A stretch of 44,789 nt of DNA from Haloferax denitrificans ATCC 35960 (lineage in GTDB: Archaea; Halobacteriota; Halobacteria; Halobacteriales; Haloferacaceae): contig NZ_AOLP01000007.1 in NCBI RefSeq assembly GCF_000337795.1, positions 1-44,789 of the forward strand, given 5' to 3'. Below the pieces are notes generated by a model that was not told the DNA's origin, ran no database searches, and saw nothing but the letters and a program-made list of their open reading frames with translations. The position numbers and the translations under genes are program-made. Shown one piece after another: positions 27,979-33,597 of this stretch (within the stretch, counting starts at the first letter, position 1; the number at the start of each line of letters is the position of its first letter).

Positions 27979-28058
27979 GGGGTCCGTTTCACGAATCGCC
28001 CCAAAAGTGGTTCGCTCTCTCGGGAACCGGGGTCGCCCGACCGCCGCCTGACCGCCGC

Positions 28059-29753
28059 CTAGAACACGCCGGGGGCGACGACGTAGACCAGAAGCGACCC
28101 GACGACGCCGGCGAACAGCGCGAAGACGACCGTCGGAACGACCACCTTCCGGAGGATGTCGCCCTCGCGGCCCGCGATGCCGATGACGCCGGAGATGGCG
28201 GCGATGTTGAGCACCGACACCATGTTGCCGACGCCGCCGCCGACGTTCTGGATGGCGACGACGAGCGCGCGGGAGATGCCGACGTCGGCGGCCGCGTTGT
28301 ACTGCAGGGCGTTGAACAGGATGTCCGAGGTGGTGTTGCTCCCGGTGACGAACGTCCCGAGCGCGCCGATCCACGGCGCGACGAGAGGGAGCGCCGACCC
28401 GGCACCCTCGGCCAGCACCAACGAGAGGACGCTCATCATCCCGACGGTCTCCGCGGGGTTGATGTTCGACTGAATCATGACCTGCGTGAGCGAGACGGCG
28501 ACGACGAGCGTCACCGCCGCCGCCGCGACCTGTCGCCCGGACTCGGTCCAAGCACCGACCATCTCGCCGGCGTCCATCCGGTAGAACAGGCCGGTCAGCA
28601 CGGCGACGGGGAGAAACGGCATCGTCCCCGGCAGGTAGAGGTACGCCAGCGACCACGACATCGTCTCGTACCCGAATATCTCGTAGGGACCGACGGTGAA
28701 CCCCTGTAAGACGGACACGAGGTCGAGGGTCGGCCAGCGCGTGACCAACAGGACGACCGCGACGGCGACGTACGGCACCCACGCCTTCCAGACCGGCATC
28801 CGCTTTCGGGGCTCGTCGGTGTCGAGCGACGACGGGTCGAGGCCGCCTAACCACTCGTCGAGCCAGCCCCGGCGGTCGGGGAACGTCCACCGCTCGGCCG
28901 GGACGAGCACGTCCCGGTCGGCCATCACGACCCCGACGGCGAGGACGGCGAAGCCGGCGGCGATATCGGGGAGCGCCGGCCCGATGAACCACGCGACCGC
29001 GAGCTGGACTCCCCCGGTCAGCCCGCCGAGGACGAGCGCGAACGGCGCGATGGGCGCGGCGGCTCGCGCGGCCCCCCGAACCGACCGCTCGTCGTCGTCG
29101 CCGAACCAGTAGACCAGCAGGAACACGCCGAGCAGTCCCCAGAAGGCGAACGTCAGCCCGGTCATGACGCCGGTCCACGCCGAAACCAACTGCCGGAACG
29201 GCCCGCCCGCCATCGCCGCCGGGAGAATCGACTCGATTTGACTGACGCCGCCGAGAATCGGCGTCCCCGCGGCCCCGAACTGCGGGTTCGGCGCGTTGAA
29301 GAACAGCCCGAACACCGCCGCCGCCAGCGGCGGGAAGCCGAGGCCGATAAACAGCGGCGCGGCCAGCGCCCCCGGCGTCCCGAACCCCGCGACGCCCTCG
29401 ATAATCGTCTCGAAGCCGAGGCCGATGAGGAGCAACTGGATGCGCCGGTCGCGCTCCAGCCGGCGGAAGTACCACCGAATCGTCTCGATGGCACCGCTGA
29501 TTTCCAAGTAGTTCATGAGCAGAATCGCCCCGAAGACGATGAGGACGATGTTGAGCCCCTCAAGCGCGCCGTACACCGCGGCTCCCGCCCACGCGGTCGG
29601 CTCCATGTTCCAGAGCGTGAGCGCCAGTGCGGTCGCCAGTACCCACCCGACGCCCATCGACCGCGCCGCCGACCACCGAAGCCCGGCGAGGAGGACGAAC
29701 GCGACGACGATTGGGACGCTCGCCGCGAGCGCTAAGATTACGACTGAAGTCAT
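28059..29753 (-). CDS. lctP: L-lactate permease (LctP family)
   Basis: This is a 564-residue membrane protein with 12 or more helices. LctP motifs include [18 protein letters not shown] near residues 119-136, the [15 protein letters not shown] block near 151-165, [18 protein letters not shown] near 467-484 and [18 protein letters not shown] near 505-522. It takes up lactate, and probably glycolate, driven by an ion gradient. No lactate dehydrogenase genes are adjacent. A TATA-like CTTAAG lies about 75-80 nt upstream, so a leader of about 50 nt is likely. The promoter region lies just before the left edge of the AT-rich island. Confidence 0.93.
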
Positions 29754-29918
29754 TGTGTCTTTCTGCGTGTTCTTGACCGAGTTTGTTGTAGTATGCGTAC
29801 CGTTCTCCGTCCCGTCGAACCGAAAGCAGGCTTAAGAGATTCGGGCAATAACGTCACCGGGTCGCGTGCCTCCGGCCGGAGGTTGTGGATTTCGAGTGAG
29901 AGAGTGGCCTCGGCACTC
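29754..29918. other. lctP upstream region up to the island border
   Basis: Mixed composition and no coding frame. It holds the lctP promoter (TATA-like CTTAAG near 29830) and, at its right end, an 8-bp inverted repeat (29891-29898 with 29914-29921) surrounding the left copy of the 13-bp direct repeat. Confidence 0.5.
29906..29918 (+). repeat. left copy of 13-bp direct repeat bounding the AT-rich island
   Basis: GGCCTCGGCACTC is identical to 32374-32386. GC-rich chromosome lies to the left and AT-rich DNA starts directly to the right. It is a candidate attachment core or target-site duplication. Confidence 0.65.
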
Positions 29919-30090
29919 GAATCAGCAAATGTCACTGGATTGTAGGGCTATTTATATTGGTGTCCTCGACTCAGACTCAAACCGATAGACTGAGAAGAGA
30001 TATCTAACCAGATGCGCCCTATGTATTGGAACTCCCCTCGATTGAAGGAAACCATCTGCGCTACCCAAACGAAGTAATGGCTCCAGAAAT

Positions 30091-30109
30091 CGGATAGACT
30101 GATTATCCG
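30091..30109. terminator. hairpin at the end of a gene fragment in the island
   Basis: CGGATA and TATCCG form a perfect 6-bp stem around a 7-nt loop. It overlaps the stop of the small minus-strand frame ending at 30103. No long T-run follows, so a terminator role is only possible. Confidence 0.3.
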
Positions 30110-30222
30110 ATGTGTCCTTCTTCGGTTTGGAGGTTTGCTGTTTCGAGTATTTGTTGTATGTCGTTGACTCGGTTGTGTGCGTCTTCCGGCCTTTTCCATA
30201 TTTTCTGTGAATCTTTCTTCAA
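30103..30222 (-). pseudogene. short frame, probable remnant of a gene
   Basis: A minus-strand frame of 39 codons from a TTG reads as credible protein (SQKIWKRPEDAHNRV, NDIQQILETANLQTEEG). It is open further upstream to an in-frame TAA near 30260 without any ATG. The content is helical, polar and acidic, unlike random translation of AT-rich DNA. It could be the 3' end of a truncated gene brought in with the island, or a true micro-ORF. Confidence 0.3.
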
Positions 30223-30366
30223 AACCAGAAATGATATGTTACTGACAAATAACGAATTTTATATGATTAACTGGGTTGAGGGCTTCAGATCGATATCCAG
30301 GCCTCTACGAACTTTTGTTGATTGACCTGAAACACAGATGCAGAAGGTTAGAGTATGCTAGAGAAT
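30223..30366. other. AT-rich spacer inside the island
   Basis: No convincing frame on either strand; in the frame of the fragment at 30103-30222 there are stops near 30260 and 30360. The stretch lies downstream of the lipoprotein gene and may carry its terminator, but no clear hairpin was seen. Confidence 0.4.
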
Positions 30367-32052
30367 TTAGGCTCCGGCCAGTACTTGCTGGCTGAAGTCA
30401 TCCATTTCTTCTCCTTCTAGGCTCGCATTGATATCTTCTGTGCTCATGCTGTACTCTGGGTTGTCTCGGAGGAACTGGTTGAAGTCGTCGTATTCTCCGC
30501 TACTATCCTCCCAAATATCTTCAATCAGAGAGTCATCCTCTACAACTGCATACTGTGGATTCTCTGTAGTTCCGTATACTACATGGTTTTTATCTTCTGT
30601 ACGTACCAGTTTTTCAAGTACTTTGGCCTGATTGTATAATTTCTGAAATTTAACATCATTTTGATTGAAGTTCCTAAGCTTTTCAGTGAAATCTACCACG
30701 TACTCCGTTGTTGGAGCAACAGTTTCTCCATGACCAGGGTGAGGATCATCTTGATGATAGAGGGAGTTTGCCATTTCTCCAATTGTGCGGACAGCCTTAC
30801 CTTTTTTGCTCTCAAATCCAAGTGAAGATGTATTCTCATCATTCTCCCATCCAAATCTCAATGGGTGCCAGTGCTCCTGGTAGCCAAGATTTTCGGGATC
30901 TAGATATCCAGAATCCTCAATTAATGGATGAAGCTGAATACCTCCTCCTCTTGAAGTCACTGGAGATGCTACAGTCTCCATGAATCTGAGTTCTTCTGAG
31001 CCATCTGCGTTCTTACCGTAAATAAGGCCTGTACCGTGACCTAATGTTTCAACGTCCCATGCATGGACTTCGAGGCCCTGATTAGTATTTTGCTCTATTG
31101 CTCTTTCCAAAGCAGGAGCATACAGTGCATCTTCGGTAGATACTGGTCCATCATTTGTTATTTTTGCCTGCCAGTTGAATAGGTAGGGGTGGACCCAATC
31201 TAGTGCTTCGCCTACTGTTTCGGCGTTGGAGAATTGTTCGAAGTCGAAGTTTCCTCCTCTTCTTTCTGCCATGCTTCCGTTTGGGTAGATTGCTGCGGGT
31301 ACTTCTTCACCGCTCTTGATTGCTTCAATATCTGGGTTTCCTGTATCTGTTCCGATGCTGTCTACGAAGTTCTTTACTTCTGTGGGTTGGGCTTCTGCCA
31401 ATCCGGTGTAGTCGTTGTCGTGTCTCCATTCGTATGCTGCTAGGTCGATTCCGAATTTGTCGAATCCTAGTTGTTCGTGGCTGCTGTAAGTATCTAGTAC
31501 GGGGTCTGATGTAACGAATCCGCCACGATCCTCTAGGTAGTTGTCTTCTAGAGAGTTCTGACCTATCTGATTCCTTAATTCTTCATTCCTCTGGGGAACT
31601 ACATCGACTTTGTAGTTTCCTGGTGTGGCCTTAACTGCAGGTGCCGTATCTTGGGCCTGGTTATTGCCTGAAGATGCTGTTGCGGTAAATTCCTGTTCAC
31701 CCTTCTTCATCTGACCTGGCTGAACAGTAACCGTATTACCGTTCCATTGTTCTGAAGTGTTGTTTATCTCTACTCTTTCATTTGAGACTGTTACTGAGTC
31801 TGGCTGTCCCGTGGCTTGGACTGTGAACCGGGCCTGGAAATCCTCGATATTCTGGTCTTCCCAGATTGAAGGCAGTTGCTGTGGATCGGTCTCAGTAGAG
31901 ATACTGACCGTAATCTCCGTTCGCTTGGTAGGGCTTGTTTCTGTGGCGTTGTTGGGGTTCGCTGTGTCTTCGTTGTTTTCGGTGATGGTGTTACAGCCTG
32001 CGAGTGCGGTGAGGAGTCCGGTGGCTCCAAGGAGGAGTTTTCGTCGTTTCAA
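30367..32052 (-). CDS. Tat-type lipoprotein of unknown function (island gene)
   Basis: This is a 561-residue protein starting at TTG. The N-terminus has twin arginines (KRRK), a hydrophobic stretch and a lipobox LAGC with C20, so it should be a Tat-exported, lipid-anchored surface protein. A Thr/Asn/Glu-rich tether follows (residues 21-45), then a likely beta domain to about 150, then a large domain with conserved-looking ALDWVHPYLFNWQAKI, EVHAWDVETLGHGTG and QEHWHPLRFGW. HAW recalls transglutaminase-like folds, but no Cys other than the lipobox one is present. An in-frame TGA nine bases before the TTG excludes an earlier start; GGTGA lies upstream as a weak RBS. Function unknown. Confidence 0.8.
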   Translation of the reverse strand: MKRRKLLLGATGLLTALAGCNTITENNEDTANPNNATETSPTKRTEITVSISTETDPQQLPSIWEDQNIEDFQARFTVQATGQPDSVTVSNERVEINNTSEQWNGNTVTVQPGQMKKGEQEFTATASSGNNQAQDTAPAVKATPGNYKVDVVPQRNEELRNQIGQNSLEDNYLEDRGGFVTSDPVLDTYSSHEQLGFDKFGIDLAAYEWRHDNDYTGLAEAQPTEVKNFVDSIGTDTGNPDIEAIKSGEEVPAAIYPNGSMAERRGGNFDFEQFSNAETVGEALDWVHPYLFNWQAKITNDGPVSTEDALYAPALERAIEQNTNQGLEVHAWDVETLGHGTGLIYGKNADGSEELRFMETVASPVTSRGGGIQLHPLIEDSGYLDPENLGYQEHWHPLRFGWENDENTSSLGFESKKGKAVRTIGEMANSLYHQDDPHPGHGETVAPTTEYVVDFTEKLRNFNQNDVKFQKLYNQAKVLEKLVRTEDKNHVVYGTTENPQYAVVEDDSLIEDIWEDSSGEYDDFNQFLRDNPEYSMSTEDINASLEGEEMDDFSQQVLAGA

Positions 32053-32148
32053 TGGGAGATGTCACCTGGATGTTGTGTCTACTTCGTAGTGTCACTGTGT
32101 TATAGGTTGAGGGAGATCTTCTCACCTGAAATTTTGAGTGAACCTGTT
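32053..32148. other. AT-rich upstream region of the island lipoprotein
   Basis: This stretch should hold the lipoprotein promoter; CTATAAC on the minus strand near 32098-32104 is the best TATA candidate, about 46-52 nt before the TTG. No coding frame is credible. Confidence 0.4.
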
Positions 32149-32331
32149 CTAAATCCGCCGCAGATTCTCTTCCGTCGGCTCCATAGCGAGGAACTGCTTT
32201 GCTTTGACAATGAGTTCCTCAGAGTTTGGTTGGCCGCTCCCCATCATCTCAGATACGCCAGACACCCCGAACACTAAATTTCCATCCACAAGCTCAACCA
32301 GCTTCAGAGACAGGTCCGTCTCTAGATCCAA
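32149..32331 (-). pseudogene. small island ORF, possibly a gene fragment
   Basis: A 60-codon frame from TTG encodes a plausible soluble peptide (ETDLSLKLVELVDGNLVFG, then SEELIVKAKQFLAMEPTEEN). In-frame coding character continues a further eight codons upstream to a TGA, with no ATG. This suggests a truncated gene or one with a rare start. Family unknown. Its right end lies about 40 bp inside the island border. Confidence 0.4.
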
Positions 32332-32373
32332 AACCAGGACAAGATGTCCAGAATTTCATTTCTAAAATTATGA

Positions 32374-32386
32374 GGCCTCGGCACTC
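32374..32386 (+). repeat. right copy of 13-bp direct repeat bounding the AT-rich island
   Basis: Identical to 29906-29918. GC-rich chromosome resumes just after it. GGCACTC within the repeat also pairs with GAGTGCC at 32405-32411, forming a 7-bp stem with an 18-nt loop, so the insertion site may be a hairpin or terminator-like structure. Confidence 0.65.
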
Positions 32387-32505
32387 ATAGGGCTCCGCAT
32401 CACCGAGTGCCTAGTTCGGTTCGGAACGGTGCCGTCGTCATCGGCCACTTCGCTCTCGCCCCGCGACCGAGTAATCACCATCGGTCTCGCCCGCCACCGA
32501 CTCGC

Positions 32506-33597
32506 TCACGGCTTCTCCAACACGGACACGTCGATGCGGGGGTACCGAACGCCGCCCGAAATCGAGCCCTCGCCGGCGACGACGCCCCAAAACCGGACGC
32601 GCTCGTCGGCGAGCAGTCGAAAGCCGATGTCGTCGTCGAAGAACCGACCAGTGGGCCAGCGGGCGACCACGTCGCCGCCGAGTCGCCCCCGGTCGTCCTC
32701 GACGGCGACGAGCGCCAGTCGGACCTCGTCGCGCTCTATCGTCTCCTCGACGCGGCCGGTGTAGGTGACGGCCGTCCCCGTAAGCGACTCGGGGTTCGTC
32801 CGGAGGTCGGCGTAGGGAATCGTCGTCGCGTTCGCCGGCGTCGCGACCGCGGTCGTTCGGTTCGGCAGGGTCGACTCCTCCGACAGCGGTTGCGGCGTCG
32901 GGACCGACCACTCGACGGTCGGGAGGCGCACGTCCGGGAGGCGGGCGTCGAGCCACGCCGCGCGGCGGGCGACCGCGGCGCGGAGTTCCGGCGACCGCTG
33001 GACGAAATCGGAGACCTGCTCGACGGCGAGGTAGGTGACGAGGCCGCCGGCGACGTAGGTGCCGGCCTTCTTGAGCGCCTCGCGGCGGGTGAGTCGGTCG
33101 GCTTCGTCGGCCTCGTCGTCTTCCGCGTCTTCCGACTCGTCGCCTTCGCTCTCGGAGTCGAGGGCCTCGCTGTCGCCGTCGCCGCCCGCCCCGCTCGCCC
33201 CGGCGGCGAGGTCGCGGACGAACGACTCGACGCCGGCCTCGCGGATTTCGACGGCGATGGCCGGCGCGTCGAGGACGACGAGGCCGGGCCGGTGGGCGTC
33301 GGAGGCGACTCGCCCGCCGCCGACCGCCGCCACGTAGGGTTCGATGCCGGCGCGCTCGCACCGCCGGACGAACGCGCTCGCCTTGTCCGCGGTGACGGTG
33401 CCCGTCGTCGTAATCCAGATTCGGAGGTCGCGCTTTGCGCCCTCGGGCGTCTTCCCGGTGGCCTCCACGTGCACGTCGGGGCCGCGGAAGCGGACGCGCG
33501 TCTCGTAGCCTCGCGCCCCCCAGACCCGCTCGAAGACGGCGGCGAGCTCGACGTCGGAGCGGTCCGAAACGACCGACGTGAGGTGGGGCGCAGTCAT
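32506..33597 (-). CDS. membrane protein with nuclease-like N domain and internal twin-arginine segment
   Basis: This is a 363-residue protein. Residues 1-130 resemble a restriction-endonuclase-like fold (AAVFERVWGARGYETRVRFRGPDVHVEATGK), with D41, E45 and K49 as possible but not standard PD-(D/E)xK residues. An acidic linker (140-168) leads to RREALKKAG (171-179) and a moderately hydrophobic helix (179-196). The C-terminal domain (220-363) has a beta-rich segment, GTAVTYTGRVEETIERDEVRLAL, resembling an OB-like fold. The linker plus twin-arginine layout recalls a Tat signal placed inside the protein, so the C-domain may be outside. Function unknown. Confidence 0.8.
   Translation of the reverse strand: MTAPHLTSVVSDRSDVELAAVFERVWGARGYETRVRFRGPDVHVEATGKTPEGAKRDLRIWITTTGTVTADKASAFVRRCERAGIEPYVAAVGGGRVASDAHRPGLVVLDAPAIAVEIREAGVESFVRDLAAGASGAGGDGDSEALDSESEGDESEDAEDDEADEADRLTRREALKKAGTYVAGGLVTYLAVEQVSDFVQRSPELRAAVARRAAWLDARLPDVRLPTVEWSVPTPQPLSEESTLPNRTTAVATPANATTIPYADLRTNPESLTGTAVTYTGRVEETIERDEVRLALVAVEDDRGRLGGDVVARWPTGRFFDDDIGFRLLADERVRFWGVVAGEGSISGGVRYPRIDVSVLEKP

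Follow-up and report, generated by a model that had tools for sequence, protein, structure and literature searches.

An integrase-less AT-rich island at the 3′ end of the sR-tMet guide RNA gene of Haloferax denitrificans, probably a site-specifically integrated cassette

An AT-rich island in Haloferax denitrificans ATCC 35960 raises the question of how DNA that is bounded by a short direct repeat, and encodes no integrase, came to occupy its position. The island was analyzed within a stretch of 44,789 nucleotides (contig NZ_AOLP01000007.1, positions 1 to 44,789; hereafter, the window) and compared with other haloarchaeal genomes and loci, denoted below by G and L numbers. The reading that we favor, with a probability of roughly 85%, is that the island is an integrase-less cassette placed at the 3′ end of the sR-tMet gene through conservative site-specific recombination, most likely by a XerA-like integrase. 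The features that define the locus are the following:

28059 to 29753, minus strand: host gene for a permease-like membrane protein, which is also the left flank in G001, G008, G009 and G011.
29906 to 29918, plus strand: left 13-mer copy (attL-type junction), read as the displaced original sRNA 3′ end; the empty site of G008 joins here.
29919 to 32373, strand not applicable: integrated AT-rich island, missing from G008 and with unrelated inserts in its place in G001, G009 and G011.
32369 to 32389, strand not applicable: possible recombinase core site, proposed from sequence only.
32374 to 32386, plus strand: right 13-mer copy (attR-type junction), the last 13 nt of an intact sRNA gene.
32374 to 32446, minus strand: sR-tMet box C/D guide RNA gene (Rfam RF02163, located with cmscan), 3′ end at 32374; the integration target.
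32506 to 33597, minus strand: right-flank host gene, kept beside sR-tMet across the genomes of the genus.

The 13-mer, GGCCTCGGCACTC, is present as two exact copies in the window (29906-29918 and 32374-32386), confirming the perfect direct repeat described in an earlier note on this DNA. Its claim that the AT-rich DNA is bounded exactly by these copies agrees both with the alignment to G008 and with the GC profile, which drops from about 0.70 outside to 0.41-0.53 inside the island (overall GC about 46%), and none of the genes in 29919-32373 encodes an integrase, as that note had also observed. The genome (3.83 Mb) contains three exact copies of the 13-mer and no exact match to a reversed control pattern. 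The suggested search for further copies next to AT-rich DNA did not bear fruit: the lone third copy (G000:C8:329282) has GC-rich surroundings and no AT-rich neighbor, and was rejected as another occupied site in favor of coincidence in GC-rich DNA.

The history of the junction can be followed in relatives. G008, from the same genus, aligns to positions 28001-29918 of the window and then from 32374 onward, the overlap being the 13-mer only, and so provides an exact empty site with a single 13-mer, as is characteristic of an integrative element at the 3′ end of an RNA gene; the empty site foreseen from the window, in which one 13-mer links 29905 to 32387, is therefore present. Inserts unrelated to the window island occupy the same junction in G001, of the same species (3.45 kb, with 12/13 matches in the left copy), in G009 (3.58 kb, the left copy retaining only GTGGCCTCG) and in G011 (9.1 kb, with both 13-mers exact). 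The empty site and these other inserts corroborate the proposal of site-specific integration with a 13-bp direct repeat.

What the repeat belongs to emerges on its right side. The sR-tMet gene scores 67.8 bits (gathering score 50), with a full-length match (1-72/72), and is present in 161 of the 170 family genomes. In our reading, the 13-mer comprises five D-guide bases, the box D CCGA and the GGCC of the terminal or closing stem. The guide is complementary to CACTCATAGGG, in the anticodon loop of elongator tRNA-Met, a sequence with just one occurrence in this genome outside sR-tMet, in what, judged by eye, is the elongator tRNA-Met gene with its intron (ARAGORN, in a setting without introns, does not report it). 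In a review, sR-tMet is listed as the haloarchaeal Cm34 guide (PMC4033218). The wobble C of elongator tRNA-Met is the base whose modification it directs. A tRNA gene was considered as target and rejected; ARAGORN gives only a tRNA-Pro, at 174-260.

The sRNA owes its complete 3′ end to the right copy; the left one is the former end, now displaced. The terminus of the RNA gene is thereby repeated in direct orientation, its restored copy on the gene side, as in RNA-gene islands. Because the element supplies a replacement 3′ end and displaces the old one, the geometry is that of tRNA-targeting elements; and since sR-tMet guides modification of elongator tRNA-Met, every insertion rewrites the outer stem of a translation-related RNA, which presumably stays functional after integration. 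The earlier note missed the location of the right copy within an RNA gene, the hotspot with its integrase family and a broken gene that the island shares with only two other sR-tMet islands. In L087 (G042), a second sR-tMet copy lies 8.16 kb from the first with a core that differs by one base, which may reflect duplication of the entire sRNA gene.

To assess the extent of the hotspot, we retrieved up to 20 kb beyond the sRNA 3′ end from each of 80 genomes and examined 85 loci in all. Exact repeats of the sRNA end of at least 12 bp were found at 13 of the 85 loci, compared to 1 and 2 in controls, and cores with element-like flanks define junctions in 19 of the examined loci. The left end of these elements, GGCCTCGGCACTC-ACGACTCACAATCTATCCATAGTGAATGT, is conserved between genera and also between elements whose cargoes are unrelated. 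Exact matches to the 34-mer that combines core and left end come from 20 genomes of a wider collection, all of them haloarchaea (genera including Halorubrum, Haloarcula, Natrinema, Halovivax, Halostella, Halarchaeum and Haloferax), and in many of these sR-tMet lies 0.8-2.9 kb to its right. A second end type, TCTAA..TATGWGGCC, is represented by the right end of the window island (TCTAA..TATGAG-core) and recurs in G009, G003, G034, G093, G169 and G007. The best-conserved cassette ends belong to class A/B and those of the window island to class C, so a different recombinase could have moved the latter. The class-A right end yielded no match when scanned against viral_contigs.

Larger elements at the same site point to the enzyme. 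The 9.1-kb element of G011 encodes a tyrosine recombinase of 309 aa, with a gene for 175 aa directly upstream, that matches PF00589 with 88 bits and, among NCBIfam models, fits XerA_Arch best (206.7 bits, short of the 220 cut-off); the integron integrase model TIGR02249 gives only 60.5 bits against 265. This integrase family comprises 15 genes in 14 of the 170 genomes of the archaeal family, with a partner gene for 164-186 aa directly upstream of int. For eleven of the 15, a perfect 13-mer stands on either side, one of the pair at sR-tMet; the islands so delimited measure 7.7, 8.8, 9.1, 20.3 (two genes), 21.5, 22.1, 22.9, 31.9, 97 and 103.6 kb. Two others (G071, G067) have the sRNA within 3 kb, and those of G117 and G148 are on contigs with the 13-mer and without the sRNA. 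In 7 of the 15 (L159, L160, L162, L167, L168, L169 and L170) a core precedes int at a distance of 572-672 bp; in G067 the core 598 bp upstream, in opposite orientation, is the sRNA itself. No core was seen near the seven other PF00589 genes scored in the window genome. In a tree with several unresolved inner branches, the sR-tMet-linked integrases group together with one Natrinema plasmid integrase, and the other integrases of the window genome are long-branched; phage relatives are only about 27% identical. The window genome itself yields no integrase of the sR-tMet-linked family in a search at E up to 1e-60, so the enzyme came from a visiting element or was lost.

Alongside these elements, the sR-tMet site of haloarchaea harbors cassettes of 0.8-5 kb with shared ends, and no integrase was seen in these small units. 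One unit of 919-921 bp, encoding a PIN-like protein and a small partner, recurs in several genera. At L200 (Halobacteriales QS_6_64_34) three units of 921, 836 and 805 bp stand in tandem directly before sR-tMet, with shared ends and cores at -1757, -836, 0 and +805 relative to the matched 34-mer; their cargo, all of toxin-antitoxin type, consists of the PIN-like protein with its partner, a PIN protein (PF01850) and a DUF5615 + DUF433 pair. Further cassettes encode halorhodopsin-like rhodopsins (PF01036; L093, with 158 bits, L102 and L198), a KwaB-like Kiwa protein (PF16162; L086), a Pycsar cyclase with its effector (PycC, PycTM; G009) and GmrSD-like and PDC-M57B proteins (G001), and the 21.5-kb integrase-bearing element of G130 has, from a reading of its ORFs, a type I restriction-modification-like operon. 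From family matches only, the cargo probably serves in defense. Similar PDC-M57B-like proteins are encoded in the islands of G001, G004 and G130, in two of them with adjoining GmrSD/DUF262-like proteins.

Genome comparison thus documents the target, the junctions, the turnover of inserts, the association of integrase, core and site, the shared ends and the tandem units on which our favored reading builds. The mechanism that we propose would start with a site-specific XerA-like tyrosine recombinase, encoded beside a small partner gene on other elements. Acting in trans, this sR-tMet-linked integrase would probably catalyze recombination of a circularized cassette with a core, GGCCTCGGCACTC, that corresponds to the 3′ terminus of the sRNA; the 13-mer copy brought by the element would restore the sRNA end, and the old end would be pushed to the far side. 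The possible core site at the right junction has inverted arms TATGAG (32369-32374) and CTCATA (32384-32389) with a 9-bp spacer.

The island carries a lipoprotein gene and a gene remnant:

30367 to 32052, minus strand: cargo lipoprotein of 561 aa, with lipobox LTALAGC.
32152 to 32298, minus strand: remnant of a broken gene, with homology to the N-terminal portion of a DUF4145-like ORF (343 aa) in G113.

The lipoprotein has no match in Pfam, PADLOC, PHROG or NCBIfam, and its AlphaFold model is unusable (mean pLDDT 35.5). Homologues with 70-81% identity occur elsewhere in 5 of 15 genomes of the genus, including a second one in this genome, and their sites hold no sR-tMet, tRNA or core. These homologues (L041-L044 and, in this genome, L045, G000:C17:183429-185018) sit in other low-GC stretches, so the gene travels by other routes too. 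Short pieces of window 30103-30229 are 84-91% identical to DNA beside the homologue of G003 (L041), and the cargo module may accordingly extend beyond the lipoprotein gene. The broken gene, in turn, is tied to the site: it occurs in only 3 of 170 family genomes (window, G034 and G113), all beside sR-tMet, where G113 holds the DUF4145-like ORF and G034 a split copy on an island that also bears a truncated integrase of the sR-tMet-linked family. The remnant suggests some decay after insertion.

Such decay lends weight to the one competing account that we take seriously, while judging it clearly less likely than our own: the island could be what is left of a larger, once autonomous element with an integrase that inserted at sR-tMet and was later stripped of this integrase and most other genes through internal deletion. 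This account invokes the same site and chemistry, requires no action in trans for this copy and fits the broken gene at 32152-32298, the splitting of the same gene in G034 on an island with a truncated family integrase, and the want of a family integrase in the window genome. It has more difficulty with intact-ended integrase-less units that recur across genera at a constant 919-921 bp and also in tandem, a pattern indicating that small cassettes do move as such, and with G001, of the same species, which has another small insert without integrase. We think that the island arrived via the sR-tMet integrase system without an integrase of its own, or that its integrase was lost later; for the window copy, to which either course may apply, our tentative reading is movement in trans. 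As larger elements at the same site have an integrase and the window island has none inside it, the latter was filed as non-autonomous.

The remaining alternatives fare far worse. The earlier note regarded a hairpin-type target as plausible, given dyads at both sites. Both dyads are indeed present, the left one (TTCGAGTG/CACTCGAA) with one half in the host flank and the other in the element. It is missing, however, at the sibling junctions of G001, G008 and G011, and the right dyad is internal to the sRNA gene and varies from genus to genus. With dyads varying among occupied sites, a sR-tMet 3′ end as the real target and a XerA-like tyrosine integrase family that tracks the site, hairpin- or single-strand-targeted insertion (integron attC-like or IS200/IS605-like) is very improbable. 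Insertion by a transposase with duplication of a 13-bp target, for which the direct repeats at both ends and the missing integrase might speak, is a shade less credible again, given that the 13-mer is fixed, part of an RNA gene and common to unrelated inserts, that the island has no transposase and that no further occupied targets were seen in the genome. A chance repeat around an ancestral AT-rich region is the least credible of all: a 13-mer may well repeat in 3.8 Mb, as the extra copy in GC-rich DNA attests, but the empty site of G008 already refutes this reading, and both it and the replacement inserts have their limits precisely at the 13-mer.

Haloferax is already known to host elements that occupy tRNA genes and encode XerC/D integrases, including the IGEs of Haloferax gibbonsii (PMC7921747). 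In a 2021 review of archaeal recombinases, the targets named are intergenic regions and the genes of proteins and tRNAs; its main text contains none of the terms sRNA, snoRNA and non-coding (PMC8371274). In the open-access literature we found no account of integration at snoRNA or C/D sRNA genes, archaeal guide-RNA genes included, and no paper on sR-tMet as an integration site. Archaeal elements at tRNA 3′ ends (H. gibbonsii IGEs; SNJ2, pNOB8 and PYG1 integrases) share with those at sR-tMet a XerC/D- or XerA-type integrase, a repeat that restores the 3′ end of the RNA gene and a displaced remnant on the far side (PMC7921747, PMC8371274); they differ in that here a box C/D guide RNA gene is targeted, the core spans only 13-16 bp, many elements lack an integrase and cassettes occur in tandem. 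SNJ2 likewise combines a haloarchaeal tyrosine integrase with small adjoining genes (helpers Orf2 and Orf3; PMC8371274), but by its description it uses a tRNA gene, whereas here one partner gene lies just upstream of int. Bacterial RNA-gene islands in the Islander database are also delimited by a restored RNA gene and a displaced fragment (PMC4383910), their targets being tRNA or tmRNA genes instead of a guide-RNA gene. Box C/D guide-RNA genes join the known targets of archaeal integrases.

The likeness to integrons is one of operation. Archaeal integrons, reported from MAGs that span nine phyla and equipped with IntI and folded attC sites (PMC9668308), also feature small tandem cassettes with a common recombination site, one fixed attachment site and, often, toxin-antitoxin or defense genes. 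Tandem cassettes at one fixed site are found in L200 (three), a resemblance in the way of working only, since the integrase here fits XerA best and integron models poorly, not qualifying as IntI, and the platform is a host RNA gene instead of an attI beside intI. The cassette ends are a conserved linear sequence with the inverted pair TATGGATAGA/TCTATCCATA. On balance we lean slightly toward a haloarchaeal integron-like system, in which XerA-like integrases would shuffle integrase-less cassettes in trans into sR-tMet-anchored arrays that store defense and toxin-antitoxin genes lineage-wide. The data point to sR-tMet as a defined place for the exchange of defense genes among haloarchaea and, as the sRNA is present in nearly every family genome, sequencing beside it should uncover new defense cassettes; the short core and the integrase could also serve as a chromosomal integration tool for Haloferax.

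Two observations concern plasmids. The Natrinema salinisoli plasmid NZ_CP084471.1 encodes an integrase (L186, 75103-76032) that is 62.7% identical to that of G011, with no close core within 12 kb, and the plasmid is a possible vehicle for the sR-tMet system. In G070 (C7:2523373-2626968) and G101 (C1:688688-785637), two 13-mers enclose an island of about 100 kb whose integrase is located at the far end; these islands are possibly integrated plasmids.
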